Of a stretch of 64,000 bases of DNA, positions 2,689-54,308 are shown piece by piece. Location: assembly GCA_030062745.1 (NCBI GenBank), contig CP099852.1, forward strand, positions 21,102,266 through 21,166,265. Direction: 5' to 3'. Position numbers and translations under genes: made by a program. The notes under the pieces were generated by a model. That model saw nothing but the letters and a program-made list of their open reading frames with translations, was not told the DNA's origin and made no database searches. The DNA comes from Capitulum mitella (taxonomy: Eukaryota; Arthropoda; Thecostraca; Pollicipedomorpha; Pollicipedidae). The first letter of the stretch is position 1; each line of letters opens with the position of its first letter.

Positions 2689-3336
2689 TCAAGCATGGGT
2701 GACGTTTTTTGGCCACAATTTCCTCCAACTTGCAATCAGTGTCTGCTCTTTCATCTCATTAAGAGCATTCTGAATGTTGACCAGGCACGTTGCAATGTTG
2801 TATCCCCGCCAATAATTCTTCAGGCTGAAGGCCACGTTGTCTTCGTCGATGGAGGAGATGAGGCCCTTCATCGTTGACCTCGTTAAAGGGCCTTGAAGGC
2901 ACGAATGACCCCCTGATCCATGGGTTGTATAGGGGAAGTGGTGCTGGGGCGCAGGAACTCCACTTGGACCCCGTCATAATAGAGACTAGTTGCATGTCCT
3001 CCTGCACAGTCCATGAAGAGGACGATTTTAAAGGGCAGCCCGTTTTCAGCGAGGTACAGCTTCACCTGCGGGATAAAGGAGTTTACAAACCAGTCGAGTG
3101 TGAGGGCTTTTGTTATCCATGCCTTTTTGTTGTGCATCCAGTGGACGGGCAGCATGGCTTTGTTTTTGTTTTTCAAATCCCGAGGATTCAGGGACTTGTA
3201 AATTAAGCCGGGCTTGAGCATGAAGCCCGCAGCATTCCCACACATGAGGAGAGTCACTCGATCTTTGTGGGCCTTGAACCCTGGCCTCTTCAATTCGTCT
3301 TTGTAAAGGAACGTCCGGGATGGCATCCTCTTCCAT
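2689..3336 (-). pseudogene. Tigger/pogo-type DDE transposase, C-terminal half, broken
   Basis: The main frame (3326-2883) has two catalytic-domain signatures of the DDE_1 superfamily used by Tigger, pogo and Jerky proteins: LFMDCAGGHA with the second Asp, and PIQPMDQGVI with the third. The frame stops at FKAL, and the family-like C-terminus (2871-2689, ending in WPKNVTHA) continues in another frame, so a one-base shift is present near 2885. The N-terminal DNA-binding half and the first Asp are missing; 3337 onward is simple sequence. A near-identical copy is on the plus strand at 35415-35780. It is a decayed element, not a working gene. Confidence 0.8.
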
Positions 3337-3520
3337 CTTCCATCCTCATCCTCATCCTCTTCCTATTTATTAGTTATTATTAAGTTATTGTCATTATTAA
3401 CTTATTATTGTTATTATTATTGTATTGATATAATAACTTATTATTATTATTATTATTAGCTTTATTATTGATTGCTATTTTTTTTTTATTTATTATTACC
3501 TTTATTTATTATTTATTGAC
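3337..3520. repeat. AT-rich TTA microsatellite
   Basis: Runs of TTA/TTAT units after a short CATCCTCATCCT tract. The mirror image lies at 31765-31915, so it is part of the inverted pair 3340-4760 / 30505-31925. Confidence 0.85.
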
Positions 3521-3960
3521 CGTGCGAAACCTCACTCATTACAAACGCCGTTCGACGGAAGGTTGTTGTTACCAGCTCAGGGCTGGACTGTCGTTCTCGT
3601 TGTCTCCTTGGGTTTCGGAACTGGTCGAGTCGCAGAGCAACTTCAAAACCGCCGACTACGGCGACGGCGGCGCCACCGTCCTTCGCGCCGTGCCGTCGTG
3701 TTCGCCGTCCACGCCACCACCGCCGCCTGCGCTGTGATACTCGGTTTTGGAACAGGTCGAATCCCAGAACCGTTTCAAAACCGGTATTCACCGCGTAGGC
3801 GGCACTATCACCTTCGCCGCCGCCGCCGCCATCGCCGTGACCGTCCGTTTTTGAACTGGTCAAGTCGCAGAACCGCTTCAAAAGTGCCGACGACGGCGAC
3901 AGCGGCGACAACGTCCATCCCGCCGTGCCGTCTTTGTCGCCTTGGGCTGCCCGTGACTTA
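3521..3960 (-). repeat. GC-rich palindromic satellite, three to four units
   Basis: Units of about 100 bases each carry an imperfect palindrome of about 36 bases that starts TTTTGGAACAGGTCGA and ends CAGAACCGTTTCAAAA, separated by CGG-rich spacer. Palindromes lie near 3612-3652, 3743-3783 and 3848-3885. Larger arrays of the same unit lie at 28830-30440 and 31331-31764. The long frames seen here (Arg/Pro/Ala-rich) arise from the CGG spacer and are not gene-like. Confidence 0.75.
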
Positions 3961-4250
3961 GTTTCCAGAAATGTGATCGGAATTTGATCACTGTTGGGAA
4001 AGCACTTTTGACCCAGGCGTCGATTTCAACGAAGCGATGTAAACGGTCTCACTCATGCCGACCTCAGCGTGGATATCGGCGACGCAAAATCTAGTGCCTC
4101 GGTGAAGTAGGATCTGAGTTATTTACCTGCAAACATGGTGTCATTTCAAACTCCATTTCATGTCGGTGTCAATTAAATATTGGTGTCATTTCAACGTTCA
4201 CCTCCGGGTCAGGTGCCATTATTTATTTTTGTCGTCGACGTCCACAGCAA
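3961..4250 (-). repeat. Dispersed repeat R4 (ACACCAA ... TCAAAAGTGC unit)
   Basis: Shares long near-identical stretches, inverted, with 31061-31330 and with 32450-32700, 33060-33250 and part of 29531-29640. Landmarks on its minus strand are AATGACACCAATATTTAAT, AATAACTCAGATCCTA and TCGTTGAAATCGACGCCTGG. No coding frame. Confidence 0.75.
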
Positions 4251-5053
4251 TGGAGAGAGAGAGCGCCGACGCCCCCCCCCCCCCACCGCCTGGGAGCAGC
4301 AGCTCCCGGCCTCTGGCCCGGACAGCCTGGCTGTCTCGCTGGCGAAGAGCCGGCGCAGCCACTTCAACTTCCGCCGGACGGAACGGCATTGGTACCGGCG
4401 GCGCCGAAGAGAGAGGCAGGTAAGGAACAGAAACATTGTGGCTGTGAATGTGTGTTGTTCTACAATTGAGCCCACGCCAATTTTGGCCGCTTGCTTTCGA
4501 CAATAACAAAGCACTAGAATCCGTTAAATTGTTCACTGCAACCGACTTATCGCACGACCTGTACGTGGTACCCGACCGTGCACCTTAAGAAAACATGACG
4601 GGATGTACAACTGGACAATCTGCCGGGAGATTCTTTGGGAGTGCATTTTCACATTCAGACCTAACATTTCGCACTTTTCTCCAGGCCCGGCCGTGAGTCG
4701 GCCAGCGGTTGGCCGACGTCCGGCGCCTGCCGTCCCTCCTGCCTGTGCCGTCCGGCCGGTGTTGTCCGTTCCCTGCTATCCGGCTGCTGTCTGGCCCCTG
4801 CCGTCGGGCTGACGGCGTGCGGAGCAGCTCATCCCCAGTTTCGTCTGCTCGGTCCGCTTCGGCGTGCTTTCCGCCACGGGCCGGGGTCTCAGTTCTGGGT
4901 CAACAAAAACGGAGACGCGGTCTGTTGTGGCTGCCTTCTCGCGGCAGACCGTGTTTCATACCGAAAGCCACAGAAAGCGCCAGGTAAGTGGGCAAACACC
5001 CGGCTCGCGTCTTGTCGACACGGACAACTGACGCCGCCCCGTCGCCTCCACCG
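4251..5053 (+). pseudogene. Duplicated fragment of the tyrosine-recombinase gene 3' end (exons 15-16 and their intron)
   Basis: From about 4363 the sequence matches the minus strand of 12290-11600. It includes the end of the SANT-like exon (frame ...RRTERHWYRRRRR...) with its CAG/GTAAGG donor near 4419, the whole following intron with its long pyrimidine tract, and the next exon (4842-4986, WVNKNGDAVCCGC) with its GTAAGT donor at 4987. The sequence left of 4363 is unlike the real gene and may come from a paralog. The copy ends at about 5053, 15 or so bases before the last acceptor, where a retrotransposon begins. There is no start or stop context, so it is scored as a gene fragment. Similar fragments lie at 28563-28790 and 30441-31060. 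Confidence 0.7.
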
Positions 5054-6590
5054 CTGGTTGGTGGGTTTTCGGGGCTTAGGGGCGCACCGACTGCAGGGTC
5101 ATTCGGCGCCCAGAACTTCTTGAAGCAGCTCCATTAACAAGAGTCACGACGATCAACATAATCCGACGGCGTAACACAGCGCAATTATGTCAAGACAAAA
5201 AAGTTGCCTACAACCGCATGCACAAAATAAAACGCATATGACTAGTAGCGTGAAAACACCGCAGAAAAACCGATATCCGATAAAAACCGGAACAACTGAC
5301 CCGCCTCTATAAAACGAGACTCATCACCCAGCAAATCCAGCAAAGTGCGAGGTGTCGCACGGTGCCCAAAGTGCCGCAAACGCTCTGAAATCGAACCATT
5401 GCATGTGATCAGCACATGGCGCACAGTGAGGGGCTCACTGCAGCGGTGGCGCATCCCTCTCTCTTCGCCCTTCAACAGCTGGTGATGCGTTACATGCGTG
5501 TGGCCTAGGCGCAAACGGCAGACAATAACCTCCTCTCGCCGGTGTTCGCGTGAACTTGAGGCCCAAGTTCCTAGGCGGGGTTTGGTACTTTTAAGCTTAT
5601 TCGGACCGAGCTCATCCCACTCACGCTGCCACAAGTCATACATATACGACGAAAACACACGATAAAAGTCCCTAGCAGGCAATGACATTCGTCGCGTGAC
5701 ACACACGCGTGGCGCACGCTTCGAGGCTGCATCGGCTCGTTCGTTGCCAGATATCCCCACGTGGCTTGGGATCCAGCAGAACGTCACTCTCTTTTCATGT
5801 CGATCTAACGCTGTCGGTCGTCTTAAAATATCCCGCATAACGGGATGACGCGGGCAGAAACACTTCAGCGCTAAAAGGCTGCTTAGCCAGTCTGTAAAAA
5901 GTACGTAAAAACCATCGTCGCTTGCCTCATTAAAACACGGCGCCTTGCCAATAGCCACGACGTATAAACCGATGCATGGGGTGGCAAAGTAAACGACCGA
6001 GTGTCAGGGCCACACACGAAAGCACAGCCCACACCAGCCTCCGTCGTCGATCCATCGGTGAAAGCAGTCATCTGCCCATCGTGGGATGCCATGTGCTCCA
6101 GTGCTCTGCACCGTAACTCCTCCGGGGCCACGTCGCGCTTCCGGTTCCCAGCCAAAGACACGTCGACCACAGGGGACACCAGTTCCCAGGGAGGTATGTC
6201 TAAATCGTAAGAACGCGCCACGGACCTCAGTCGCACACGGCTCTCAGTTAACAGGTCATGGACTCTCACACAGAAAGGAGTGGCTTTCAGAGATCGTCTG
6301 GTGCGAAATAGGCCTATTGTGCCCGGAGAAAACACCGCTTCATATGTGCGGTGGTCGGCCAACTGAGCCAACTTGCATGCATACCGCAACCCGAGCATCT
6401 TCTGTCGCAAAGCCAGAGGTGGCTCGTTAGCTTCCACCAAGATACTAGCGGTGGCAGACGTTCTGAAGGCATCCGTAGCAATGCGGAAGGCAGAGTTGTG
6501 CACTGTGTCCGACGTACGCTTGCTAGAGTCGCATGAAGAGTCATCCACAAAACAAGCACTTAGAGCGAATCAGGGATCTGTATAGACAGA
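5054..6590 (-). mobile_element. Non-LTR retrotransposon, family B, 5'-truncated
   Basis: Minus-strand frames 6548-5883 and 5958-5242 give the end of a reverse transcriptase and an RNase H domain. TAFTDGSTTEAGVGC contains the first RNase H Asp, and FCWIPSHVGISGNERAD is the classic C-terminal RNase H motif of I/Jockey-like elements. The two frames overlap near 5883-5958 but are out of register, so the copy is frameshifted. The C-terminal part (RHRCSEPLTVRHVLITC) has the usual Cys/His tail. The 3' UTR runs from 5241 to about 5054 and matches 28375-28562. Endonuclease and most of the reverse transcriptase are absent. Confidence 0.85.
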
Positions 6591-8002
6591 GCAACGTCAC
6601 TCTGTCCGCACCGTATGATGTACCTGCGACACGCTATAGAACGTTCAGTGATTTAAACACAAATAATAGCGCTTGATCTTGGCTATCCAGCGGTGAAAAC
6701 TGCATCTCGATAGCTCTTGTCGTTCGGGAGCAGGAGGCTGTTAAGTGGAGACACTTTCCACCACTGTTTGAACATTACGGACTTGGAAGATTTTCGGCGG
6801 TCGCCCCATCCGCACTTTGTGGTATTTGTGGTCATGTTAGGTTACGTCAAGCTACGTTGGATTACACCCCCCTGGCCCCCCTCCCACTTCCGTTTCTTAA
6901 GACCAAAAAGTTTGCTCAACTCAGTCCATGTTTGTGCTAACTCACGACATTCAGTGAGTTAGTGAGTTAGGGCCGACATCTTACAACGCCAAAGACCTAC
7001 GTTTATGGGCTATTGGCTGGTGAAAACCGCTTGTTCAAATCTTACACTGTTTTGGAGAATCTTGCACATCTGTCAACCCCTTTTTCCCATTGCTTTAAAA
7101 TAATCTAATGAAAAGAATTCCCAAGTCCATCTTTTTCAACCCGTTATGCCTCTGTACTTTGAAGAGCTAGAAGAAACTTGGCGACAATAAATTTTAGCCC
7201 TGGATCTTGGCTATCCAACGTTCAAAGCCGCATGGCGATAGTTGTTACCGTTTAGGAGCTGGAGGCTGTTCAGTGAACGCTCTTCCCCCCGCTGGCTTCA
7301 ACATTACGGACTTGAAAATTTTCGCCGATCACTCCATCCGCACTTTGTGGTATTTGTGGTCATGTTACGTTACGTTAGGCTAGGCTGGGTTAGGTTAGGT
7401 GACGACAAGTAAAAAACAACCCCTGTCCCCCTCCCACTTGCCAAAAACCGGGTTCGGACGTACATACATGAAATTATCTCGCTTTCTAATTGTGCTATGT
7501 CAATTTTATGGCCACCAAACGATTCTGCACGTCGTTTTAGTTGTAGAGCAAGTGGTTTCAGGCACTTCGCGGTGTATTTTTCAGGTCTTAGGAATTGGAA
7601 AACCGCCATTTGCACCATTCTCCAATGTTATGTGCCTTTAGAGACGTCGAATGAAGAGCAGGAAACAACTGTTTTGGAGAAAAACATAGGCCGTTTAATT
7701 CTCCATCGTTTGGTTTTTAATTCGTCAAAATCGACCCAGCCGTTCGGAGGGGCGCAATTTGTGAATGGAGGCATGTTCGTCTTCCTGACTTCTTGGCCTT
7801 CACCCCGTTTTTTGACCGCCTATAACTAGAAAAGTACGACAGTTAGAGAAAAAAGGATTTATAACGATTACGTACATTTTTCTGTGCTCTATCTCGTAGC
7901 ACCATCAAAAGAAGTGTTACAATAATTTTGTGACTCCCAAAAATTTTGAAGTCCAAAAATTGACAATAACTTTGTTGTGGTAGGTTTTTCGCGACACAAA
8001 TA
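6591..8002. other. Non-coding interval with a 0.25-kb direct repeat
   Basis: No credible gene. Two direct copies of a 240-base repeat lie at 6668-6900 and 7196-7440, about 527 apart. Both share CTTGGCTATCCA, ACATTACGGACTTG and CCGCACTTTGTGGTATTTG and end in CCCCTCCCACTT. TTAGGTTAGGT-like runs near 7380-7400 are too short to be telomeric. 6895-6975 is an inverted copy of the block also found at 10915-11020 and 23338-23430. Confidence 0.6.
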
Positions 8003-10048
8003 CATTGCAAAGTTGTTCGCCATGCCATTTTACGTATAAAACCACCCTCAGTTGGAATAACCCCTTGCCGTTTTTTTGGGGCCCGAAACTTTTTTTTCGA
8101 AAAGTGTCATTTTGACGACGGTTTTAGGATGAATCGGGCATTCTGAACAACTTTCCAATGCCATATTGCCGTCTAAAGTCAACGCAGACGGGTCAAAAGC
8201 GGGGTCAAAGGTCAAAATTTGTGGGTTTCGGATGGGCCGTGGTGAAATGATGGCAAACCTTCTGGATAGTGTTTCATATAATGTTTTTGGCGTAAAACAA
8301 GACGGGGAAGCCGAATTTGATGTTGGTTTTGTGATTGCGTCCATGGCTAGGTGACTATCGGTTCCGGAATCCCTAAGATTTACTTAATGGAATTCCGCGC
8401 ATTAGAAAAAGGTTAAAGGTGGAAAAAAGCGATCAAACAATCTTTGCGGCGGTGAGATCCGGGATTTATATTTCCCTTGTGTGCTTACCATGGCATTGTT
8501 TAATATCAGTTTGCAACACGTGCTTTGGAATTGCGCGTATATTGAGCACACAAACCCTGCGCTTTTTACTGGAAGAAACTCGGTGCCGTGGTACTCGTCT
8601 AGTGCTAGTCTAGTCTAGTACGACTACCGTGTGATTTCTTACTTGTTTTGGTTTCTACCACCGTCTCATATCATCGGATTTGAAAGACAAATTACTGGTG
8701 AATGTGTTTTAGCAGGATTGGGTTTTTCGTTTGAACCAAATCGGTCCGCTAGTATTTTCAGATTGTAATCGGTACGTTCGTCACAGCAGGTCGTCAGAGC
8801 TACTTCAAACGTTCAATGGAAGCCCGGTGATTATCCAGCACCCTATGTGAGTATTGAACGACAGCTTGCGTGCTTTCTTTGTAAACTCGTGTCCGTCGCC
8901 TCTGAGGACCTGTAGGGCATAGTGCGGTCTACGTCTGTCGGCCACAAGTGTTTTACAGAGAACAAAGTACAGAGAGGATACCAATATTTATTAGACAAGA
9001 AGGTCATTGCGTTGCCTATAGGTCTGCAAGCATGAGGCCGATCTTGATGCCGTTTTCTTGCAAACATGCAGTTAGGTGTGTACTACATCGGCGTAAAGCA
9101 CAAAACAAATGAATCGGCAACGTTTCTCGAAAACAGCCAAACACCGTTTCCTTGGGTCAAATGCGTGATTTGTGTTGACTTGGTGTAATGATGTACACTA
9201 CGGTATTCCAACAGTTATTTTACCTATATCTGTATTTTGCACGCTTAAATGCTGCGCTTGTTACTTCAGCAACCCGTCTAAACCCGTCTGCAGCACCCGT
9301 CTAAATACCTTGCCCTAATTAGAATCTGGTCCGCCATGGTTTGCCGTTGACCTCGCTTAGATCAAGGCCTGTTAATCCGGCCGCCGCTACCGATCGTACG
9401 GACCAATCAGATCACTGGCCGTACGGGCCATTCAGACCGGCGGCTCTCTAGAGGTCACCGTCGTGGGCGGAGCAACATGCTTGCAGGGCGGCACCCGTGA
9501 ATCAGCAAGGCTGAAGACAGTAGACGATATAGGCGTGGAATATGGATAAATTTGGTTAAAACTGAAAACCCATCGAATTCTGAAATCCGACTTGACCGAA
9601 ATAAATAAAGAAATGAAATCGAACTCAAAACCGTACATAAGTCTGAAACTTACAACTGACGTGATATTTATAATACTTCATTTTCCAAAGAACAACCGCC
9701 GAAGGCAGCGGCAAACGAGACACCGTTTGCCCACAGAGCACAAAGTACAAAGAACGTACCGACATTTATCAAACAAGGTCATTGCATTGCCTATAGGTCT
9801 GCAAACATGAGGCCGATCTTGGTGCCGTCTTCTCTTAAGCACCCACTTAGGTGTGTACCACATGGGCGTAAAGCACAAAACAAATGAATCGGCAACGTTC
9901 CTCGAAAACAGCCAAACACCGTTTCCTCGGGTCAGATGCGTGATTTGTGTTGACTTGATGCAATGAGGTACACTATGGTATTTCAACAGCTATTTCACCA
10001 ATATCTGTATTTTGCACGTTTAAATGTTGCGCTTGTTACTTCAGCAAA
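8003..10048 (-). repeat. Right arm of long inverted repeat, family R1
   Basis: Reverse complement of 1-1911, extending about 170 bases beyond the point where the left arm leaves the window. The sequence continues across 8003 to the left in a way that the left arm cannot show because of the N gap. The same internal duplication is seen (the block near 9000-9120 and again near 9780-9900). No gene-like frame. Confidence 0.85.
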
Positions 10049-11478: not shown

Positions 11479-11570
11479 TTAAAAAGCGCTGTCCATTTTG
11501 GATTCGCAGCGATATCCCGACATTTTTTTGGCGGCCAGTTCCAGGAGCGTCGGCGGCGGCGGCCCCGCTA
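11479..11570 (-). CDS. Tyrosine-recombinase gene, exon 17 (terminal)
   Basis: Acceptor CCGCAACAG, phase 1; then VAGPPPPTLLELAAKKMSGY and a stop at 11479-11481. An AATAAA follows 123 bases later. The upstream intron is only 76 bases, and a retrotransposon entered this intron in the duplicated copy at 5054. Confidence 0.55.
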
Positions 11571-14500
11571 CTGTTGCGGTGTAGGCGACGGGGCGGCGGC
11601 AGTGATCCGTGTCGACAAGACGCGAGCCGGGTGTTTGCCCACTTACCTGGCGCTTTCTGTGGCTTTCGGTATGAAACACGGTCTGCCGCGAGAAGGCAGC
11701 CACAACAGACCGCGTCTCCGTTTTTGTTGACCCAGAACTGAGACCCCGGCCCGTGGCGGAAAGCACGCCGAAGCGGACCGAGCAGACGAAACTGGGGATG
11801 AGCTGCTCCGCACGCCGTCAGCCCGACGGCAGGGGCCGGACAGCAGCCGGACAGCAGGGAACGGACAACACCGGCCGGACGGCACAGGCAGGAGGGACGG
11901 CAGGCGCCGGACGTCGGCCAACCGCTGGCCGGCTCACGGCCGGGCCTGGAGAAAAGTGCGAAATGTTAGGTCTGAATGTGAAAATGCACTCCCAAAGAAT
12001 CTCCCGGCAGATTGTCCAGTTGTACATCCCGTCATGTTTTTTTGAGGGGCACGGTCGGGTACCACGTACAGGTCGTGCGATAAGTCGGTTGCAGTGAACA
12101 ATTTAACGGATTCTAGTGCTTTGTTATTGTCGAAAGCAAGCGGCCAAAATTGGCGTGGGCTCAATTGTAGAACAACACACATTCACAGCCGCAATGTTTC
12201 TGTTCCTTACCTGCCTGTCTCTTCGGCGCCGCCGGTACCAGTGCCGTTCCGACCGGCGGAAGTTGAAATGCAGCCCGGCCTGCACGAGGAAGGCCCGCAT
12301 GCTCCGGAAGGTACGCCCGTCCGGAGACACCAGGCGGTGCTGGACCTCCTCGTGCCAGCGCATGACTGCCATCTCGGCCGGGCTCCAGCGGGCGTAATGC
12401 CGCCCGCTGGGCCGACCGACGACCGCCTGCTGGCCGGGCTGCTGCTGCTGTCCGCTGCTGTACGTGTCGCCCGGCGCCAGCCCCTGCTCCAGCCGAGCGG
12501 GCTCGTCGTAAGGCTGCAGGGCCTCCATCTGGGAACATAAGCCGAAACGCCGGACATCAACATCACCGCTCGCGCTCCGGTGCAAGGTTCGACTCGGACA
12601 GTGAATAACGCTTAATGGTACGCTGTATAGTACGGGTATGCAGTATGTAGGTATATGGTACCGATAGGTAAAGGGCTGACGGTACAGAGCATTCTCCCCG
12701 CTCCCTGCAACCACTACTTACGATCCTGATGCCGGTCGCCTCCTCTACCGCCACCACCGGGCCGGTGGGGAATCGCACGATTCCCGCTGGTGGCTGTCGG
12801 CGAGACACAATCATTAACGTCGACATCAGTGACATTGACAATGGTCTGTTTTTCGTTTGACTTGAGGTGTGCTTCTCGTATATGTTGTAGTTTATCACAC
12901 AAATGGAGACCGACCAAGAGATGATGACATGAACACTTCATACATTGTTTTTGACGCATAAGAGAGGTTGAAGAAAATTATGTTGTGTCTGCGAGTCATA
13001 GAACGTTTTCTCAGCGCTTTCATGAGATTTCTTGACGACTGTTATTATTTTGACTTACCGGGGCGACCGGCATCGGCGCTCCTTGAGCGGGCAGGGGCGG
13101 GACGCCGGACGGGCCGGGCTGCGGCGGGCCCGCGGCCGCTGCCCAACCGCGGGCGGCCGCCACGGTGGCGGCGACGGGCCACGCGGCGGGCTGCGGCGGA
13201 ACGGCGGGCCACACTACGGGCGGCGGCGGAGGGCCGGCGGGCCACACTACGGGCGGCGGCGGAGGGCCGGCGGGCCACGCCACGGGCGGCGGAGGGCCGG
13301 CGTGCTGCGGCGGAGGGCCAGCGGCTGCGGCGCCTCCAGGCCGGCGGGCCGCGGCTCCAGGCCGGCGGGCTGCGGCGAGTCGAGATCACGGCCACCAGGA
13401 GGCTCTTCCGGGCTGGCCGACCCGTCCGAGAAGGACCCCGGACTCCCGCCGGGCCACACGGGGTCCGGGGCGCTGGACGGGCCGGGCTGCGGCTCCTGCG
13501 GGGCTGCTGCGACAGCAGCAGCCTCCTGCGGGCAAAATCCGAGACCGACCGTTGGCAGTGAGGCGATACGGTACACGTCAGACACCGGCCCGCACGCAAA
13601 GCACATTGGTCACGGAGAGCACTGCTGCCGCCATAATGCGCACGACATTGCCGCTGACAAAACGATGGATCCATTCCGACCGGGATTAGTAGCCGGCGTT
13701 TCGTTCTTTTGCCCGTTGACAGTTTGACCACTGGTGACAACGGGCAGCAGACACCGCCGCGCTCACCTGCAGGACCCCGCGCCGGAAGGCAGAGGCATAC
13801 CCCTGTACGCGCTCCTGGTGGCCGTGGGCGCTGTAGTGCCGCTCGGCCGTCTCCGTCGAGTGCGCACAGGCCTCAGCGGCCGTGGCGGCGCTGAAGCCCG
13901 GCAGACGGCCGGCGGCACGGAGTTGGCGATCCTGTCAACAGCGAAGCCCACCGTTCAGTCCTGAGGCGTGTCACGGCCACGGCAGTCGGCTCTGGAGTGT
14001 CAGTCGGGACGAACCATGCGTACGGAAAGAACTGCGAATGCGGCTTTTGCAACGCCAGCTCAACGACATCCGAACACTGGCACACAAGCGCGCACGCACG
14101 CACACAAGCAGAACGCATTTCCGAAAACTGCCGTGGATCACTGAACGCGCAAGAAAGTGCGCAGCGCAATGCACGTTTTTTTCCGCGAATCAACCGTATC
14201 GTAGAAAGACGTGTTGCAAACACGCACACGCACAGACAGAGGACGTGCCGCGCACATCTGGTGCATAACACGCGGCTGTTGCGCTCATGCCTGTCCACTC
14301 ACCATGATGTTCTGGAACGCCCTGTTGCGGCTGGCGATGAAGCGGCCGACGAGCCGGGGCGCCGGCCCCAGCCCCAGCTCGGCGGCGGCAGCCTGGAGGG
14401 TGGCGTCAAGGGCGAACGTCGAGGTCCGGACGCCGGGCAGCACGGTCTGCGTCGCGGCTGCAGCACGGAGCGAGTGCGACGGCGGGTCACGCGCAGCTCA

Positions 14501-17500
14501 GGGTACACGGTCTCTCGGCCGCGCTGCCGAGGCGCGTCGGCTTGCCCAATGCCAGCCTCATGTTGCCACCGTTGCCGGCCCCTGCCGCCTCCGCCGGGTC
14601 CGGCAGCCGTTGGGCGTGCGACCGTTCGCGCAGGAACTGAGGCCCGCGACGGCCGGCTTTCGAGTGACTCGCGCGGGACGGCTTTCAAGTGAAGAACAGC
14701 ACACTGATTACACGACGCCGACCGCTGCCCTTTGGCGAACTCTCACCTGAGCGCTCCGTCTGGCTGAGCAGGAGGGGTCGGAGGACGACCACGAAGTACT
14801 GGAGCGCCCTCCAGACCCACTCCGTCACCACGACGAGCACTCTGCCGCGGCTGCCCAGCGTCTTGCTGGCCGTGGTGTACCACGACCAGCTCACCTCGCC
14901 GTCCACCTCGCGCATCTGCCAAGGGAAAGACGGTCATTGCGCTGCGTGATGCCGCCGCCGTCGACACGCGAGAGCCCTGCATCCGTTTGCGGCGCGCGCC
15001 GCGACAAAGCACACGGACCGCGCGTCGAGACACGTACCTGCCCTGCGGCCATTTCGGCCAGGGTTGTGCCGGCCACCGCGCCCGTCCGCAGGCCGCTCAG
15101 GTTGGAGATGGCGATGTAAAGCATCCTGAAGCACGCACACCGAGCAGCATTAAACACACACACACGGAGAGCGCCGCGGTCCATGGCGGGCGGCCATTGG
15201 TCGGCGATCGGTGGACGAGCGCGGCACAATGGCCGCTCTATTGATCACAGTTTGCCGCCGCGCCAGCTGTCCGCTTCGAACGCACTGGCGATCCGCGCAG
15301 CGCAAGCCGGCGATACCACAAAACGGGTAACGAATGCGCGCCCACCGGCGGCCGGATGGCGCGCACAGTCGACATCGTCACACGTACTCCCTGAACCTGA
15401 CGGCCAGGTCCCTGGACGGCGCGGTGGGCGGCTCCGGCCAGCTGTGCCGCTGCAAGAAGCGCCGGCAGACGTCTTCAATGGCGACCCGCTCCTCCAGGCC
15501 GAGCTGGAGGCGCGGGTCGCGCTTGGCGTCCTGCCGGCGCGCCATGGCCTGGTCGATCTCTGCGAAAGCGCCGTGTTGTTTCAGTTCGGCTTCAGAACGG
15601 CAAAATGCATTAGCTCCTGAGCGAAAGAAGCTGGCAACATCAAATACGCGGCAGATGAATCCCCGCGTTGTTCCGGATCGTATGCACGCCAGACATTGCG
15701 GATTAAAGCAGCATCATATCCTACTAAGCGAGGTCAGACGAGATCGGGCTATCAATCGCAGACACCGAGTTGTTATCGCATGGACCCACGCGACACACAC
15801 AAGGAATATTTCGGGCGAAAGAAACCACAGCCTTCAACGAATCTCTGACGTCACGACACGTTAAACGCACGTAGTGAGCACTGTATGCAAGTAAAAGTAA
15901 CAACGCCCGCAGGACAGGTCTCATGGTGCATTTCTGAACTACTGTTCATGGCAGTAATCATGCAAGCTGCACGACAAGTACCCGTCCGTCTGTACCAGGC
16001 CTGCTTTGCTACGTGTCATGTCATTCGATGTATGATCAGAGGCAGAACTGAAACTATTGTCAGTGTCATCTGAAAACGACTAGCATTTATCAGAGGGCCT
16101 TTATCCGAGGAAATGGCTGCGTTTTCTAAGCCCAATTTTCGGATGCCAGCGGTGAAGACAAATTTAACCCTATTCCCGGCAGCGGGGAGGGGGGGCGGAA
16201 TCCGCATCCTCTGCGCGCGGCGTTTCCAATGGCCACGGACAACGCAGAATGGCCGACGCAACAACTCGACGGAGACCGGACTATTGCGATCGCTCGTCGG
16301 AGCTCGACGTTCGCTCGTCACTAACCGGATTTGTGCTGCCGCCTGAGACCGACCAGGCCCTCCGCCACCTGCGCGAACTGGCGCGTCACGGCCGCCGACC
16401 GCAGCGCCCACGCCGACTGGGCGACGCGACTGCAGAAATGCTGCAGGGCCTTGATCAGCCGCAGGCCGTTGAAGGGCTGGGCCCTGAGCGTTGCTGCAAT
16501 CGCGCCGAACACCTGTCGGCAGAACAGCGACGTCTCGGAAAACGGCCGGCCCGCGGCCGCGGTGCGGCGCGCAATACAGTCACGCCGCGCACAGAATGCG
16601 CACGCAAAAACTCGGCGTGACGCGGACACCGCCCCTGTTCAAACGGGGATTATCGTGCCGTGAGAAAAATTGAACGCAACTCCATTTGCCCGCTGCCGCG
16701 GCGGTCGACTCACCGCTGCGGTCGACGTCCGGTCGCAGACGATGTGGCGCCAGTCGTCGTCGCCGCCGCCGACGTCGGCCAGTCGCAGCAGCTGGCTCAG
16801 CGCCTGGCTGTTGGCCAGCTGCTGCTCCCGGTACTGAAAACAGAGAATCGCCTTTCAGCACGAGGTGCCGCTCGCGCAAAGCGTGACGACTCGTCTCGCG
16901 GGACCGCGGACACTGCCGGCCGTCTGTACGCAAGCGGGCTGGCTCGAGTGCCGGGGCTCGACGACGCTTTTTCGTCACGCGGCCGGTTACCCGTGCCAAA
17001 AGCTTGTCGCGAAAAGCGACACCATTACCACCGCCGTCAGGTGCGCGTGCGACTCACCGTGCCCGTGTGCCGGAAGAGATCGTTATCCGCGCCGTCCAGC
17101 CGCACAGACGCCGCGAGCACGCGTTCTGGCAGCGGCTCGCCGAGCAGCTGCGCCTCCTCTTCCTCCAGCTCCTGTGCACGGCGCCGCGCCCGAATCGCTT
17201 GCTGCGAACACGCGCCGATCGTCAGCCGCCTCCTCGCGGACGACCAAATAGCTCACGAGGCAGCCGCGTGACGCAAGGCACGAGGCGCACTGCGGCACGT
17301 GCGCGTCGGCGCGTCGAGCTCAAGCATTCAGGCGTGTTGCGGCGCCGACCACTGACGCGCGCCGCCATTGTCTGTCGTCTGTGGACCCCGCGGCCGTAAC
17401 AAATGCCATGCAAAACGGCTGGCGATTCACAGACAATAGGACGAGCCAACACGGCAGCAGCCAATACGGCGCTCACTCACGTTGATCCGATCGCTGGCCT

Positions 17501-19792
17501 CCTCGTGCACAGGAGCCGGAAGCTGTCTGGCCGCCGTCTCCGTCATCGCTCGCAGGCACTGCGGCGCACGTGAAAGTTGGCGCGTCACAATTCACATTTG
17601 GCAAATTGCGCGCGGCCATCTGACAGCCGACGGCACGGACGGCCACAGAGGGTACACCTGCATGGGAATCTGCAGACGAGGCACGAGTAGCTCCACAATG
17701 CAACAGCCACCCGCGACGTGTCCGACATTCAGGGTACAGCCATGCTCGGAAATTTCGAACCAAATGGTCTTCGGGACACCAGCACGCACGCACAACTCGA
17801 TGGATTTGAAATGCGGCACAAGGATAATTTTTTTTCCGACGCGCTCGGTCGGCGGTGGACGTTTCCGGATCGGGCCGATCATTTCAGCCACGGGCTCACG
17901 TCTCGCTTCAGTGTCCTAAATTAGTTTTGGATAGAGTGGAGGTGGAGATCGGTATTCCTCTGGGAGGTAAAAAAGGAATATTTGAACTCTGTTGTGATTT
18001 ACGTCAAAAGAATTCCATCAAAAGTTTGACTAATCTCCCTCTCACTGATACCCTATTGTTATTATTGTTGTTTTTACTGAAGAGTACTGACACGACCGGC
18101 ATCACATCTTCCCTATTGCCTGTTACTCATGGTTACGCATGAGTAGCAGGCAGTGTTGCTGTGCTGCAGGTTCAGTGGCCATCACTGTATTAGGTATTAC
18201 TCCTGACTCCAGACAAACCCTGACAGTGAGATCCTGTTGCCATAAATGTATCACCGGCTAAGGAAGACTAAGTGCAGAATGCCAACGTGTTTATCGTTAA
18301 CGTCTTCCAAACTAGTATTCCACAGCACGCAGTCTTCGGCGGCACAAATCAAGATGCATATAATTACCGGGATACTCTAAACTTGCATCTCACAGCTAAA
18401 GGACTCATGCTGCGGTTGGAGAGGTGAAACACAGTAGCGGCATGTGCCAAACGACGCAGCAGTCATCACGCACGTAGACCTTGATCGCATGACAGTGGAC
18501 TTAGACTAATGCGAACCTCGAATGTAGGCGAAAAAAACTTAACTAATGCGGACCCTGAGTGCAGGCGAATGGATGGGGATGATAGGCCAGAGGCATGCAG
18601 TGCATAATGTCTGACGACACACGGTAAGCCAAGGTTGAACACACCACGTGCTTTTCGGCGGCACAAGTCAAGACTCATATAATTATATGATTGAACAGAA
18701 TCTGAGGTGTGGTCATTATGATCGTGAGAGAGGTAAAAAATAATATTGCTGAGTGTGTATTTCCACTCAAAATTAGGAATTTCAGGTCACTGTCTCGCTT
18801 TGACTTACCAAGGTGCGCGCGAACACCTCCTGCTGCCGCACCTGCCGCCCCTGCTCCGGGTGCGTGCGCCGCACGTGGCTCTGAAAGTTGCGCAGCCCGT
18901 TGCGGCCGGCACCGAACCAGACGGTCGGCCGGCACAACGGGCAGCGCACCTCCACGCTGAAAACGCACAGCAGCGCGTCAGCCACCGTCCAATGTCGGAC
19001 CGTGCTCGTGCGTCAAGAACAACACAACGTTCTTCGGATGGCGATCGCTCTTCCGACGGTTTCCACTGCTACTGTCTGCGTTTACGCCATTGCAACATTT
19101 ACGTTACTGCATCATGTGCGTTAATCATTGGATCTCTTTCGCTCTGCCGAGGACGAATGGTGACTCACCGGTCGGCGGCGGCGCGCCGGTACACCCGGAG
19201 CTCTCCGCGTGCCACCAGCCGCCGGGCCGTCTTAAAGAAGGCCGCCTCCGCCTCGTGCTCGGAGCCACGCCGCCTCAGCACCCAGACGTGGTGCCGGACG
19301 CTGTCGCCGGAGGCGAACAGCTTGCCGCAGCAGCACGGCACAAGGTTGTCGCCGACCGGCTCTGCCAACAACGACGGCTACAGGTTAAACGGCCGCATCT
19401 CCTCGCACCACAACACGACTGGATGTTGCAAAAGCAGAGAGTCCATGAACTTGATGAAACCAAGCAGCAATGTGACTTGATCTCGGCAATCGCGTTCCCG
19501 CTCGCCTCATTGCCTCATTGCCTGCCAGTGCACATTGCCTGCTGAAATCGGAAAACATTTGCTCAGAAATCCAGTTGCCAAATGCAGATGACATCCAGAC
19601 CACTTTACAATGGGTGCAAGACGTAACTTACCGAATCCTGCCGGCACTGGTTCGGCGACCAGAGGCGACAGAGCCCGTGCCGGCTGCGACGACGACGGAA
19701 GATGGCGCTCTGCCGGCGGCAAAGGGGCCGTCGTCGTCGGCGGCGGCGGCGGCGGCGGTGGCGTCTTCGGCGAAGACGTCTCCGACGATGGG

Positions 19793-19848
<56 letters not shown>

Positions 19849-20331
19849 GGGAGGCGGCGTCTTCGGCGGTGGAGACTGCGGCGGCTGCGGCGAGGGCGTC
19901 TTCGGCGGTGGAAACACCAGCCGGCGGGCCGCTGCGGGCCGCGTGTCGCCGAGCTCACTCCGCTCCGGCCGCGACGGCGGCGACGGCGGAGCGGGGGCGG
20001 CGGCGGCGGGGGCGGTCGCGGCCGTGCCGGCGGCCGCGGCCGTACCAGCCGCAGCGGCGGCCGTGGCGGCCGCGGTCGTGCCAGCGGCGGCCGTGGCGGC
20101 GGCGGCCGTGGCGGCAGCGCCGGAAATAGATCCCGGCCACGACCCGCCGTGGTGAGGCAGCCTGCCGCTGCCCTGATGTCCCAGGCCGGGCGGATGGCGC
20201 CTGGCGTGCTGCCGGTGCTGGGACGGACGGCCTCCGGTCGCGCCGATCGGCGGCCGCCACGGGCTGGCGCGGTCGCGTGCCGCCGGGGAAGACGCGCACG
20301 CGCACACGCCGGGCCGCTCGCTGCGCCGGAC
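11479..20331 (-). CDS. Multi-exon tyrosine-recombinase-domain gene (zinc fingers, integrase-like catalytic domain, SANT-like domain)
   Basis: At least 17 exons read on the minus strand. Each is bounded by AG acceptors and GT donors (mostly GTAAGT, GTGAGT or GTACGT), and from exon 2 to exon 17 every junction keeps frame: phases 2,0,0,0,0,1,2,0,1,0,0,0,0,0,1. Estimated length is about 1,100 residues. Domain order: Pro/Ala-rich N-terminus, two Cys/His zinc-finger-like motifs, a helical core-binding-like region (exons 5-8), a tyrosine-recombinase catalytic region (exons 9-12), a Pro/Gly-rich region, a SANT/Myb-like region (exon 15), a Cys-rich exon and a short tail. Catalytic candidates are Arg in GLRTG, Lys in TASKT, His in CAHS and Tyr in ERHYS (codon 13833-13835). 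The expected HxxR box is not clear (APRLVGRFIAS). Known members of the fold cut and rejoin DNA or are domesticated; the role here is inferred, not shown. It could be a Crypton-type mobile gene or a host gene. One frame problem lies in exon 13, and the first exon is unresolved. Confidence 0.75.
11647..11791 (-). CDS. Tyrosine-recombinase gene, exon 16 (Cys-rich)
   Basis: The acceptor CATCCCCAG follows a long pyrimidine-rich tract; donor GTAAGT at 11641-11646. The phase that fits both neighbours gives FWVNKNGDAVCCGCLLAADR, with a CCGC cluster that might bind metal. The other two frames are open as well, so the frame rests on phase agreement with exons 15 and 17. Copies of this exon with its donor occur at 4842-4986 and near 28630-28775. 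Confidence 0.6.
12211..12528 (-). CDS. Tyrosine-recombinase gene, exon 15 (SANT/Myb-like domain)
   Basis: Exactly 106 codons, phase 0 to 0, between TTCCCAG and GTAAGG. A Gln/Gly-rich start is followed by ARWSPAEMAVMRWHEEVQHR, a middle helix (RTFRSMRAFLVQAGLHF) and a very basic end (RRSERHWYRRRRR). The spacing of Trp/aromatic residues over three predicted helices resembles a Myb/SANT or trihelix DNA-binding domain. The last part of this exon is the piece found duplicated at 4363-4419 and in 30441-31060. It begins with ATG, but the acceptor and phase fit an internal exon. Confidence 0.7.
12722..12793 (-). CDS. Tyrosine-recombinase gene, exon 14
   Basis: Exactly 24 codons, phase 0 to 0, between GTCTCGCCGACAG and GTAAGT. 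The product PPAGIVRFPTGPVVAVEEAT then GIRI is a short linker. Confidence 0.65.
13059..13525 (-). CDS. Tyrosine-recombinase gene, exon 13 (Pro/Gly-rich, internal frame break)
   Basis: The acceptor TTTTGCCCGCAG opens phase 0 (EAAAVAAAPQEPQPGPSS...) and the donor GTAAGT closes phase 0 in the frame ending GAPMPVAP. The exon is 467 bases, 3n+2, so the two ends are in different frames: the first frame hits a TAG near 13248. Between them lie three to four tandem 30-33-base repeats encoding AGPPPPPVVWP-like units (about 13200-13300). A copy-number change or assembly error in this GC-rich repeat would explain the mismatch; otherwise the gene is truncated here. Confidence 0.55.
13767..13931 (-). CDS. 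Tyrosine-recombinase gene, exon 12 (box II His and nucleophilic Tyr)
   Basis: Exactly 55 codons, phase 0 to 0, between TTGACAG and GTGAGC. The product includes EACAHSTETAERHYSAHG, which fits the H-x-S/T ... Tyr pattern at the end of the catalytic domain: His in CAHS and Tyr in RHY (codon at 13833-13835). Spacing between His and Tyr is 9 residues, as in the family. Confidence 0.75.
14303..14457 (-). CDS. Tyrosine-recombinase gene, exon 11 (box II region)
   Basis: Two bases plus 51 codons, phase 1 to 0, between CCGTGCTGCAG and GTGAGT. The product runs from TQTVLPGVRTSTFALDATLQ to GPAPRLVGRFIASRNRAFQN. The position corresponds to the HxxR box, but His is not at the expected place and only nearby Arg residues remain. 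This could reflect divergence or lost strand-exchange activity. Confidence 0.7.
14747..14915 (-). CDS. Tyrosine-recombinase gene, exon 10 (beta-hairpin Lys region)
   Basis: 56 codons plus one base, phase 0 to 1, between CCCTTGGCAG and GTGAGA. The product has TASKTLGSRGRVLVVVTEWV: Lys in a beta-hairpin followed by a hydrophobic strand and a helix with aromatic residues (RALQYFVVVLRPLLL). This is the expected fold region between box I Arg and box II, where the catalytic Lys sits. The very hydrophobic segment could be mistaken for a membrane helix. Confidence 0.75.
15038..15125 (-). CDS. Tyrosine-recombinase gene, exon 9 (catalytic Arg I)
   Basis: One base plus 29 codons, phase 2 to 0, between GTGCTTCAG and GTACGT. 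The product IAISNLSGLRTGAVAGTTLA matches the box I pattern of the tyrosine-recombinase fold (hydrophobic helix, GLR, then a short helix), with Arg at residue 13 of the exon as the first catalytic residue. An in-frame ATG in a good Kozak context lies upstream at about 15183, so an alternative start that skips the earlier exons is conceivable. Confidence 0.75.
15388..15559 (-). CDS. Tyrosine-recombinase gene, exon 8
   Basis: 172 bases, phase 1 to 2, between GCTTTCGCAG and a GTACGT donor at 15382-15387. The product (DQAMARRQDAKRDPRLQLGL, then EERVAIEDVCRRFLQRHSW) is basic and helical. If the donor were ignored the frame would stop two codons later (FREYV-stop); the strong donor and the phase match with exon 9 argue for splicing. 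It leads directly into the start of the catalytic region, as in the family. Confidence 0.75.
16164..16205 (+). repeat. End fragment of a TTAA-target element in intron 7
   Basis: TTAA followed by CCCTATTCCCGG, a G run and GGCGGAATCCGC: the same terminus as the elements at 38811 and 62213. Only about 40 bases are present and no second end is seen nearby. Confidence 0.6.
16326..16512 (-). CDS. Tyrosine-recombinase gene, exon 7 (helical core-binding-like region)
   Basis: 62 codons plus one base, phase 0 to 1; acceptor CTGTTCTGCCGACAG, donor GTTAGT. The product is all predicted helix (GLRLIKALQHFCSRVAQSAW, then a run of Ala/Val/Gln-rich helix). This fits the N-terminal, SAM-like core-binding domain that precedes the catalytic domain in tyrosine recombinases; that assignment is inferred from position and helical character. 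Confidence 0.7.
16714..16833 (-). CDS. Tyrosine-recombinase gene, exon 6
   Basis: Exactly 40 codons, phase 0 to 0. The acceptor has a good pyrimidine tract (TTCTCTGTTTTCAG) and the donor is GTGAGT. The product (YREQQLANSQALSQLLRLAD then GGGDDDWRHIVCDR) is helical then acidic. Confidence 0.75.
17058..17201 (-). CDS. Tyrosine-recombinase gene, exon 5 (charged helix)
   Basis: Exactly 48 codons, phase 0 to 0, between CAG at 17202-17204 and GTGAGT at 17052-17057. The product starts QAIRARRRAQELEEEEAQLL, a strongly charged amphipathic helix that could be a short coiled coil, and ends in DNDLFRHTGT. Confidence 0.75.
17481..17558 (-). CDS. Tyrosine-recombinase gene, exon 4
   Basis: Seventy-eight bases, phase 0 to 0, between GCCGCAG and GTGAGT. 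Product CLRAMTETAARQLPAPVHEE followed by ASDRIN. It is short and polar with no recognised domain, but it joins cleanly to exons 3 and 5. The intron before it is 1.25 kb and holds no other exon I can support. Confidence 0.65.
18809..18956 (-). CDS. Tyrosine-recombinase gene, exon 3 (C2H2-like motif 2)
   Basis: Acceptor TTTTCAG at 18957-18963; donor GTAAGT at 18803-18808; phase 2 in, phase 0 out. The product contains CPLCRPTVWF followed by NFQSHVRRTHPEQ, a C-x2-C then H-x4-H finger with normal spacing. This suggests nucleic-acid binding, as expected at the N-terminus of recombinase-type proteins. Confidence 0.75.
19169..19377 (-). CDS. Tyrosine-recombinase gene, exon 2 (Cys/His zinc-finger-like motif 1)
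   Basis: The acceptor is CTGTAG just before 19377, or GTTGGCAG before 19361; the second keeps phase with the Pro-rich frame of the previous exon. The donor GTGAGT lies at 19163-19168, phase 2. The product has CCCGKLFASGDSVRHHVW, a C-x-C ... H-H arrangement like a degenerate C2H2 finger, followed by a basic helix (FFKTARRLVARGELRVYRR). Confidence 0.65.
19632..20331 (-). CDS. Tyrosine-recombinase gene, exon 1 of those seen (Pro/Ala-rich; 5' end unresolved)
   Basis: Minus-strand frame open from a stop at 20332-20334 down to a GTAAGT donor at 19626-19631. The product is very rich in Ala, Pro and Thr, with a homopolymeric Pro run encoded by the CGG/GGC tract at 19788-19852, and ends ...LVAEPVPAGF. 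No ATG is present in this frame, so the start is in an upstream exon or the 5' boundary (for example the AG at 20317-20318) is elsewhere. The Arg-rich alternative frame is also open, but Pro/Ala-rich linkers are the more usual product. The whole block is a CpG-rich island. Confidence 0.5.
19788..19852. repeat. GGC/CCG trinucleotide repeat inside the Pro-rich exon
   Basis: About 20 near-perfect GGC units on the plus strand, reading as CCG (Pro) codons on the gene strand. Long CGG runs are unstable, and this one may differ among individuals. Confidence 0.9.
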
Positions 20332-25512: not shown

Positions 25513-26540
25513 AACCAGTTTCTCTGTTCACCGCCGCACTGTAAATCGAAGACTCTGTGCTGCTGGGCTGAAGGCATACCGCCCGAGAAAGAAGCCGCGA
25601 CCAACTGAACGAATGAAGAAGGCTAGGTATGGTTGGGCCATTCAACACAAACACTGGACAGAGGCAGACTGGGCTCAGGTATGTCTGTTTTGCCTTATAA
25701 TGTTTCTTAAGTGAAAAGAGAACACTGTCATGTTTTACATTTGACATTTATTTACATGTATTACATTACATTACATGTATTTCTGTCTTTCCAGTGCATT
25801 GCAAGGCCTAATTCAAACTTCTTACGAAGTAGATTCATTCATCCTATGTCAAGTAGCAATCTTTTATTTTAAACATTTACTTCTCTTTTCAGGTTGTCTT
25901 CAGTGATGGGTCCACCTTTGAGGTTCTGGATGACAGAGTGCAAACAGTCAGAAGAAGGCCAGGAGAGGAATTTCTTCCCGAATGTTTGCAAAAGACTGTG
26001 AAGTTCGGTCAGAAAATTATGGTATGGGGTGCCATTTCTGTTCATGGCACCAGTCGACTCCATATCGCAGAAGGTACCATGAATGCCCAGAAGTATGTGC
26101 AAATGATGGACTCTCGTTTGAAGCCACAAATCCAGAACTGGTATGGAGATGATCCATGCACATACCAACAGGATTCTGCCCCATGCCACACTGCCAAGTC
26201 TGTTTATGCATGGCTAGAGAAAACCAAGATTTCTGTGTTGCCATGGCCCGGAAATTCCCCAGATATGAACCCAATTGAAAGTCTGCGGAACATTCCAAAA
26301 GATGAGATCCACAGTGAACCAATAACGACCAAGACAAAACTGATAGAAAGACTGATTCATATGTGGTTCCACTCGGAAAAAATTAAAGGTTTATGTCAGA
26401 CCCTCATTCGAGGCATGCCACGTCGAGCTGAGGCGCTGCGCCTGGCCAGAGGTGGTACTACCAAGTACAAAATAAACTGTTGGATTATTCACAAATCAAT
26501 TATGGTGAATATCTTGTCAGTTACGAATTATATGAAATGA
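25513..26540 (+). CDS. Tc1-like transposase, N-terminus missing, one intron
   Basis: Exon 25513-25678 encodes the second helix-turn-helix region (VHRRTVNRRLCAAGLKAY) up to TEADWAQ. A 213-214-base GT-AG intron (25679-25892, ending TTCTCTTTTCAG) follows, then exon 25893-26540 in the same phase. The catalytic DD34E residues are in FSDGSTFE, QQDSAPCHTA and SPDMNPIES. The frame ends in NYMK-stop. The first helix-turn-helix is gone because the left part of the element is replaced by another repeat at 25512. Introns are uncommon in Tc1 transposases. The catalytic part has no other break, so decay is recent. Confidence 0.85.
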
Positions 26541-26589
26541 TTTTAACGAAAATTGACGTCATGTACAAAAATTGCCAATAATTTGTCCA
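26541..26589 (+). mobile_element. Right end of the Tc1 element
   Basis: After the stop, the sequence ends ...ATTTGTCCAGTACTG followed by TA, the standard Tc1 terminus and TA target. The matching left terminal repeat is not in the window. Confidence 0.65.
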
Positions 26590-26976
26590 GTACTGTATGC
26601 CAACTTGCTGAGGCAGCTGCGACAGGCTGTCAAGTCAAAACGGCCTGGACAACTGACGAACGGGGTCTTGTTTCACCAGGACAATGCTCCTGCTCACATG
26701 TCGGTGCTTGCAATGGCTGCTGTGCATGACCGTGGCTTTCAGCTGGTTGATCACCCCCCATATTCTCCTGATTTGGCACCATCTGACTATTTTCTGTTCC
26801 CAAACAAAAAAAAACACTTCGCTGTGAAGCAGTACCGGACTGATAGTAAGGTCATATCTGCTGTTCAGGACTTTTTTCGTGATCAGGATGAGAGCTTCTA
26901 TACCAACGAGATCCAAGCGCTCCAACACCGCTGGAAGAAGCGTGTGGACCGCAGGGAAGACTATGTTGAAAAATAA
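26588..26976 (+). pseudogene. Mariner transposase, C-terminal half
   Basis: The frame starts at YANLLRQLRQAVK and carries FHQDNAPAHMS (second Asp) and HPPYSPDLAPSDYFLFP (third Asp of the mariner DD34D triad), then KKRVDRREDYVEK and a stop. The N-terminal half is absent. The break falls at the TA of a Tyr codon, where the Tc1 element ends, so Tc1 inserted into this mariner and the left side was later lost. Confidence 0.85.
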
Positions 26977-27766: not shown

Positions 27767-28562
27767 GTCATGCCCTTATGCGGGATATTTTAAGACGACC
27801 GACAGCGTTAGATCGACATGGAGAGTGACGTTCTGCTGGATACCAAGCCACGTGGGGATATCTGGCAACGAACGAGCCGATGCAGCCTCGAAGCGTGCGT
27901 CACGCGTGTGTGTCACGCGACGAATGTCATTGCCTGCCAGGGACTTTTATCGTGTGTTTTCGTCGTATATGTATGACTTGTGGCAGCGTGAGTGGGATGC
28001 GCTCGGTCCGAATAAGCTTAAAAGTACTAAACCCCGCCTAGTAACTTGGGCCTCAAGTTCACGCGAACACCGGCGAGAGGAGGTTATTGTCTGCCGTTTG
28101 CGCCTAGACCACACGCATGTAACGCATCACTAGCTGTTGAAGGGCGAAGAGAGAGGGATGAGCCACCGCTGCAGTGAGCCCCTCACTGTGCGCCATGTGC
28201 TGATCACATGCAATGGTTTGATTTCAGAGCGTTTGCGGCACTTTGGGCACCGTGCGACACCTCGCACTTTGCTGGATTTCCTGGGTGATGAGTCTCGTTT
28301 TATAGAGGCGGGTCAGTTGTTCCGGTTTTTATCGGATGTCGGTTTTTCTGCGGTGTTTTCACGCTTCTAGTCACATGCGGTTTATTTTGTGCATGCGGTT
28401 GTAGGCAACTTTTTTGTCTTGACATAATTGCGCTGTGTTACGCCGTCGGATTATGTTGATCGTCGTGACTCTTGTTAATGGAGCTGCTTCAAGAAGTTCT
28501 GGGCGCCGAATGACCCTGCAGTCGGTGCGCCCCTAAGCCCCGAAAACCCCCGAAAACCAGCG
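27767..28562 (+). mobile_element. Retrotransposon B, 3' end (RNase H C-terminus and 3' UTR)
   Basis: Frames 27825-28133 and 28137-28370 are the same protein end as at 5958-5242 (WIPSHVGISGNERADAASKR to FSAVFSRF), interrupted by one stop at 28131-28133. The 3' UTR ends at about 28562, next to a fragment of the tyrosine-recombinase gene, exactly as in the copy at 5054. Confidence 0.85.
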
Positions 28563-28790
28563 GTGGAGGCGACGGGGCGGCGTCAGTTGTCCGTGTCGAC
28601 AAGACGCGAGCCGGTTGTTTGCCCACTTACCTGGCGCTTTCTGTGGCTCTCGGTATGAAACACGGTCTGCCGCGAGAAGGCAGCCACAACAGACCGCGTC
28701 TCCGTTTTTGTTGACCCAGAACTGAGACCCCGGCCCGTGGCGGAAAGCACGCCGAAGCGGACCGAGCAGACGAAACTGGGGATGAGCCGG
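28563..28790 (-). pseudogene. Fragment of tyrosine-recombinase gene (exon 16 and flanks)
   Basis: Minus-strand copy of exon 16 with its GTAAGT donor (near 28625-28630) and the start of the following intron, fused to retrotransposon B at 28562. The junction with B is the same as at 5053, so both derive from one ancestral insertion. Confidence 0.7.
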
Positions 28791-28829
28791 TCAGCCGGAC
28801 GGCAGGCGCCGGACAGCAGGGGCAGGACA

Positions 28830-53349: not shown

Positions 53350-53352
53350 GAT

Positions 53353-54300: not shown

Positions 54301-54308
54301 CGTGCTGC

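Follow-up and report, generated by a model that had tools for sequence, protein, structure and literature searches.

A selectively constrained, intron-rich gene family in Capitulum mitella that is likely to encode a tyrosine recombinase

The locus described here raises the question of whether an animal keeps a tyrosine recombinase (YR) as a gene of its own and, if so, whether that gene is resident or still moves. The gene lies on the minus strand of a 64,000-nucleotide stretch of the Capitulum mitella genome (C14:21102266-21166265, hereafter the window), in an assembly of 477 Mb and 16 contigs. Its protein is likely, though not proven, to be a YR. The explanation that we prefer, at a probability of roughly 0.5, is a YR gene of Crypton-like transposon origin that is resident in the host and has been multiplied by segmental duplication on one chromosome. 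Splicing was read off the genomic sequence, and the copies L027 to L043 are other stretches of the same genome (17 stretches compared).

The window locus is a true gene, beyond what chance would produce. Exons 1 to 12 (20331-13767, minus strand) are separated by 11 introns, all with GT...AG borders, and splice into a single stop-free frame of 773 codons. GC content at the first, second and third codon positions of exons 2 to 12 is.72/.52/.90. A leave-one-out codon-usage test of these exons, from which exon 1 was omitted because of its low-complexity repeats, placed the model frame at the top of the six in 10 of 11 exons and second in exon 5. Inspection of the translation showed no in-frame ATG in exons 1 to 3, and the start codon and N-terminus are therefore not located. 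The features of the gene, all on the minus strand, are as follows.

19632-20331: exon 1 of the earlier model, an open Pro/Ala-rich frame with donor GTAAGT; as coding sequence this run of Pro/Ala repeats is unproven
19169-19361: exon 2, first Cys/His motif PCCCGKLF...HH, recognised by eye
18809-18956: exon 3, second Cys/His motif CPLC...HVRRTH, recognised by eye
17481-17558: exon 4, from frame, GT/AG borders and codon usage
17058-17201: exon 5, the single exon with the model frame ranked second
16714-16833: exon 6, from frame, GT/AG borders and codon usage
16326-16512: exon 7, possible core-binding part, judged from its position
15388-15559: exon 8, from frame and codon usage; its end enters the L044 alignment described below
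15038-15125: exon 9, box I, SGLRTGAVAGTT; Arg codon 15088-15086 (hand count)
14747-14915: exon 10, candidate beta-hairpin TTASKTLGSRGRVLVVV; Lys codon 14864-14862 (hand count)
14303-14457: exon 11, acceptor ctgcag|CCGCGA at 14457; box II Arg of PAPRLVG, codon 14356-14354 (hand count)
13767-13931: exon 12, CAHSTETAERHY; His codon 13862-13860 and Tyr codon 13835-13833 (hand count)
13059-13525: exon 13 of the earlier model, judged non-coding (intron sequence or a skipped exon)
12722-12793: exon 14, in phase with exon 12
12211-12528: exon 15, C-terminal helical region (SANT-like in the earlier model), ARWSPAEMAVMRW...FNFRRSERHWYRRRRR
11934-11945: last coding exon, ending ARP-stop
11576-12270: 3' end region, with partial copies at 4360-5054 (98%), 30493-30924, 29434-29518 and 28560-28819

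The coding sequence is preserved by selection in the comparison with L028, a paralogous copy that holds exons 3 (part) to 15. Changes in exons 4 to 12 fall 11/7/35 by codon position, and 20 of the 50 changed codons are nonsynonymous, as against a neutral expectation of 0.71; none of 2000 neutral simulations, run with the intron mutation spectrum for the window and L028 only, gave a fraction as low. Exons 14 and 15 also look coding, with changes of 8/1/16 by codon position and nonsynonymous change in 9 of 22 changed codons (11 of 2000 simulations as low). Raw counts without simulation are 22 of 52 changed codons nonsynonymous against L031 (exons 5 to 12) and 8 of 22 against L030 (exons 14 and 15). 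The ratio of nonsynonymous to synonymous divergence (dN/dS) is 0.20 against L028 (exons 4 to 12) and 0.25 against L031 (exons 5 to 12); dS (0.106) is, however, larger than the intron difference (0.046), and the simulation was therefore relied on instead. For the finger exons the comparison with L029 gives five synonymous and six nonsynonymous codons, too few for a verdict.

An analysis made from the letters of the window (the sequence-only reading) had joined 17 segments with splice signals and matching phases into one protein. This stands for exons 1 to 12 and breaks at exon 13, which runs into TAG and shifts the frame downstream. Exon 13 (13525-13059, 467 nt, Pro-rich) was rejected as coding sequence: the window copy leaves the frame and enters a TAG, and a TAG lies at its codon 13 in L028, L029, L030 and L031, four of the five copies compared, and not in L027. 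The exon measures 467 nt in the window and 434 nt in L027 (both 2 modulo 3), 399 nt in L028 and 405 nt in L031. Over its first 165 nt, differences from the window by codon position are 2/4/2 in L028, 1/6/1 in L029, 3/3/3 in L030 and 2/6/2 in L031, with none in L027, and third positions are not favoured. Exon 13 is judged non-coding because of the TAG in four of five copies and this lack of codon-position bias. When it is skipped, the frame 12-14-15 is open in the window and in all four copies tested (L027, L028, L030 and L031); its last residues before the stop are ARP in the window and RDR in L028 and L031. The stretch 11933-11479 falls beyond the ARP-stop at 11934. Further 3' exons are possible, with a donor near 11664 and an acceptor near 11286 by eye.

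The motifs GLRTG, TASKT, CAHS and ERHYS, on which the sequence-only reading rested its recombinase assignment, are present in the order claimed. Taken alone, this order is a weak argument. A loose R-K-R-H-Y pattern turns up in 410 of 20000 shuffles and in 4 of 143 long open reading frames taken from this genome and stretches of E. coli, and it matches 13 of 19 bacterial and phage YRs. When the pattern is tightened to require [HW][ST] and T, it misses the window protein along with 18 of those 19. Among viral contigs there were six pattern matches, none of them confirmed.

The evidence that carries the assignment is an alignment to a second locus of the same genome, L044 (C8:7596344-7596808), which was found with a search sequence for a second animal YR type and was its one genome match. 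L044 has an open frame of 311 codons with the catalytic part in one exon and Cys/His motifs upstream. The spliced end of exon 8 through exon 12 was aligned to it without guidance (semi-global, three gap settings, 1500 shuffles each), giving scores of 12.5, 23.0 and 40.8 that were equalled by 1, 0 and 1 of the shuffles. At the first two gap settings Arg, Lys, Arg, His and Tyr are all in register, which no shuffle achieved; at the loosest, four of the five are, as in 10 of 1500 shuffles. Controls with other gene parts and reversed sequence gave 49, 180 and 355 of 500. Since three comparators were tried at three gap settings, correction brings the chance level of the score to roughly one in a hundred. 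L044 spans the same stretch in one exon, so the alignment, if right, supports the joins 8-9-10-11-12. The box II His is absent from the window protein (PAPR) and likewise from L044 (TSLR).

L044 is in turn linked to an animal protein family, P0001 to P0008 (fish records included), that was reached from an open reading frame in L034. P0003, P0006 and P0008 each align to L044 with none of 300 shuffles as good and four of the five residues in register. The predicted model of P0008 (mean predicted local distance difference test score, pLDDT, 60) has XerH as its best structural match (E 2.4e-4, probability 1.00), and ranks 1 to 11 are all YRs. Stop-broken relics of this different animal finger-YR gene stand upstream of exon 14-15 pieces in L034 (702-1989), L035 (892-1998), L037 (587-2667) and L040 (reverse, 6437-5521), at C14:3.79, 20.97 and 21.01 Mb and C13:21.63 Mb. 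In these units exon 9-10 pieces follow about 200 bp after the exon 14-15 pieces, an order that is permuted relative to the window gene.

Several results weigh against a YR identity or against an intact, selected gene. Sequence searches of Pfam, PHROGs, NCBIfam and PDB named no YR for the window protein, and the Pfam scans list no PF12012 match. One search of 5.8 billion public proteins left 5993 word-sharing candidates, none of which matched at E<=10, and another scored 7992 candidates without a match at E<=1. With a profile of 19 bacterial and phage YRs, hmmsearch scored 781 of 2000 shuffles of exons 7 to 12 as high as the query, hhalign gave 0.5%, and hmmalign placed the query in none of six catalytic columns, with no usable alignment. 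The same profile in a semi-global test was equalled by 12 of 1000 shuffles, with two of six catalytic columns occupied, no better than shuffles. An animal YR profile built from seven public proteins and the L034 reading frame did no better (269 of 1000 shuffles as high), although with it XerD, FimB, P2 and Freya stand out from shuffles (8, 1, 1 and 8 of 200) and Hail does not (43 of 200); in that test the figures were 10 of 200 for an unrelated part of the window gene and 95 of 200 for the reversed query. L044 has no match in Pfam, a profile containing it found no YR in the PDB, and it is marginal against XerD (15 of 300 shuffles) and not above shuffles against five other bacterial and phage YRs (73-233 of 300). 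Residue shuffles are an easy null, and L044 was chosen after the window gene was known, a choice that may be biased. The template modelling (TM) scores of the P0008 model are low (0.27-0.32). At the level of the gene, exon divergence from L028 (4.2%) is barely under intron divergence (4.6%), 15 of 27 changed codons in exons 14 and 15 are nonsynonymous against L031 (raw count, no simulation), exons 5 to 8 of L031 are duplicated and rearranged, and the exon 10 acceptor AG has become TG in L029 and L030.

The sequence-only reading had staked its assignment on a profile match to phage integrase or tyrosine recombinase, and none was found by library or by two home-made profiles. This is a strict standard, since only one of four P-family members tested reached PF00589, and that one below the cut-off; profile libraries therefore detect few animal YRs. 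With the L044 alignment and its five residues in register on one side and the missing profile matches on the other, the assignment stays likely.

The N-terminal Cys/His motifs are there by eye, but no Pfam zinc-finger match is above the cut-off, the best being zf-C2H2_4 (E 2.9, 9.3 of 27 bits). Exon 15 folded alone gives three helices of modest confidence (50-62, 77-84 and 90-105; mean pLDDT 63), and its best PDB match is a homeobox at E 4.2. Pfam has no Myb/SANT match for it, with DUF3653 under the cut-off at E 0.018. The C-terminal region, which the sequence-only reading had called SANT-like, is thus coding in appearance and predicted to be helical, and a SANT-like fold is possible.

The copies were counted by a six-frame search whose totals are lower bounds: at least 45 genome matches at E<=10 for exons 9 to 12, and at E<=1 at least 23 for the finger exons, 31 for exon 15 and 67 for exons 4 to 8. 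Among the matches listed, all 17 finger-exon matches with E<1e-4 are on C14, where 16 lie within 20.81-21.12 Mb and the remaining one is at 6.04 Mb. Matches to exons 4 to 9 occur also on C12, C13 and C16, and matches to exon 15 also on C13 and C15. A lone relative of exon 15, 71% identical and with 172 codons in an open frame, lies outside the cluster at C15:10420247-10420552 (G000). The copy L027 is inverted, with 99.46% identity over the 9.9 kb compared, and window 1-9878 and beyond forms a large palindrome with it, centred near window 4.9-5.0 kb (by hand from coordinates). Beside L028, exons 5 to 15 are held by L031, exons 10 to 15 by L030, and exons 1 to 3 and 10 to 14 by L029, in which exon 15 was not detected. 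L032, L033, L036 and L039 are broken copies. L036, distant at 6.03 Mb and strongly diverged, retains exons 2, 3, 4, 5, 10 and 12 in order, so the fingers and the catalytic part have probably long been united in one gene.

These distributions bear on the choice, left open by the sequence-only reading, between a domesticated and a still-mobile gene. The window shares its introns with L028, L030 and L031, which share flanks among themselves, and near-identical copies have introns and long flanks in common. Segmental duplication is favoured over transposition because of these common introns and flanks and the confinement of the finger exons to C14. Pieces have also spread, as is seen from the fragments on other contigs. 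An intron-bearing Crypton-like transposon that is still mobile, its YR excising a circle that reinserts and the cluster and dispersed pieces being its copies or derivatives, would account for the many copies, for the exon 4-9 pieces on C12, C13 and C16 that are 94-99% alike (a point against pure duplication), for the partial 3' copies inside the window, and for the fact that the window, L027, L028 and L031 still have the Arg, Lys, His and Tyr motifs. Non-autonomous derivatives of animal Cryptons are known (PMC3212892). However, no common termini were found across the copies compared, and the ends of homology vary: window 11760 with L028, L030 and L031, 17908 with L028 and others, and about 14955 with L041 to L043, where one end of L043 is an N gap in the assembly and L042 is 5'-truncated relative to L041 and L043. 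Exons 10 to 12 were not detected in the dispersed pieces, and the near-identical copies take in introns and the long flanks noted above. L041 begins with a frame resembling the RNase H of a long interspersed nuclear element (LINE; recognised by eye). Pieces thus travel, perhaps as passengers, and near-complete genes have been seen on C14 alone. We therefore rank the resident gene with segmental duplication first and the mobile element second, the latter being unlikely.

Two further alternatives were weighed. A non-YR gene, lineage-specific and fast-evolving, with the motif order arising by chance, would fit the negative library and profile tests, the four of five bacterial and phage YRs that the animal profile lifts when it does not lift the window protein, the frequency of the loose pattern in shuffles and the empty public-protein search; at most 1 of 1500 shuffles reaches the L044 score, however, and none places all five residues, which leaves this account improbable. 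A domesticated but catalytically silent DNA-binding protein, of the kind encoded by DUF3504 genes, is a poorer prospect again. It would agree with purifying selection and with a single-contig cluster of finger-bearing copies, but DUF3504 domains are without most of the catalytic tetrad (PMC3212892) and R, K, R, H and Y are present here; retention of residues over so small a divergence is a weak argument against it.

Under the preferred account of a resident, duplicated YR gene, the protein would run from two Cys/His motifs, which probably bind zinc, through a middle part to a YR catalytic domain, complete in Arg, Lys, Arg, His and Tyr and spread over exons 9 to 12, and on to a short C-terminal helical domain from exons 14 and 15 that is perhaps DNA-binding. 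RNA spliced as modelled would carry the open frame of exons 2 to 12, 14 and 15. The fingers and the C-terminal domain may bind particular DNA sites, whatever the substrate, and YR units would pair, each cutting one strand through a Tyr-DNA bond and rejoining strands without ATP. The most likely ancestor of the gene is a Crypton-like transposon that encoded a YR; the gene now lies in the host genome and would have multiplied by segmental duplication rather than by its own transposition. Nothing in the sequence as read speaks against DNA cutting, and the five catalytic residues together with the selectively preserved coding sequence make the protein a good, if unproven, candidate for a working animal recombinase. 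That it is a catalytically complete host YR, locally amplified under selection and still carrying out site-specific DNA rearrangement, perhaps in its own palindromic cluster, is a long shot.

About 890 bp at window 17908-18795 are missing from L029, with a 6-bp overlap at L029 1061-1066, and look like a later insertion in intron 3. Window 28995-31911 and 3370-3915 hold a repeat family with the core TTTTGAAACGGTTCTG, in several copies 103-167 bp apart, beside 3'-end copies of the gene. A LINE RNase-H-like fragment is joined to the 3'-end repeat at 5058-5791 and 27821-28554, in two copies 98% alike (by eye). LINE-like reverse-transcriptase frames at 51243-57213 form inverted copies with 99% identity over 1452 nt (by eye), and Tc1-like and mariner-like transposase frames are adjacent at 25857-26976 (by eye). 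Two runs of exactly 500 N, at 1912-2411 and 34915-35414, are assembly gaps or masks.

Among the literature matches listed, no title or abstract opening describes this gene, and its closest points of comparison are four. The nearest is L044, with the correspondences (window gene, then L044) SGLRTGAVA and FQRAGAIRN, ASKT and DHKS, LRP and FRP, and HSTETAERHY and HQSDTQFKHY, and with an upstream CxxC...HLRRHH motif on the same strand by eye; it differs in having its catalytic part in one exon, where the window gene uses exons 9 to 12. The P0001 to P0008 family resembles the gene as an animal YR with a predicted Xer-like fold, and its relics in this genome share their units with exon 14-15 and exon 9-10 pieces of the window gene family, but its profile shows no direct similarity to the window protein above shuffles. 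CryptonA and CryptonI are likewise animal YR elements for which no terminal repeats were found, and they are described without a C-terminal domain (PMC3212892); the window gene has exons 14 and 15 and at least 13 introns in the model. It is not classed as a Crypton because its C-terminal domain differs from the described animal Cryptons, a comparison made by description with unit borders not found. The DUF3504 genes (WOC, ZMYM2-4, QRICH1, KCTD1 and KIAA1958) belong to the host and encode a domain derived from a YR, in some cases along with zinc fingers (PMC3212892), and the window gene is not classed with them because its catalytic residues are present. Kojima and Jurka report (PMC3212892) that all eukaryotic YRs found are encoded by mobile elements. 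Profile libraries easily miss animal YRs, and set beside these known systems an animal gene family under constraint, rich in introns and with the five residues in place, would let one ask directly whether an animal keeps a working site-specific recombinase.

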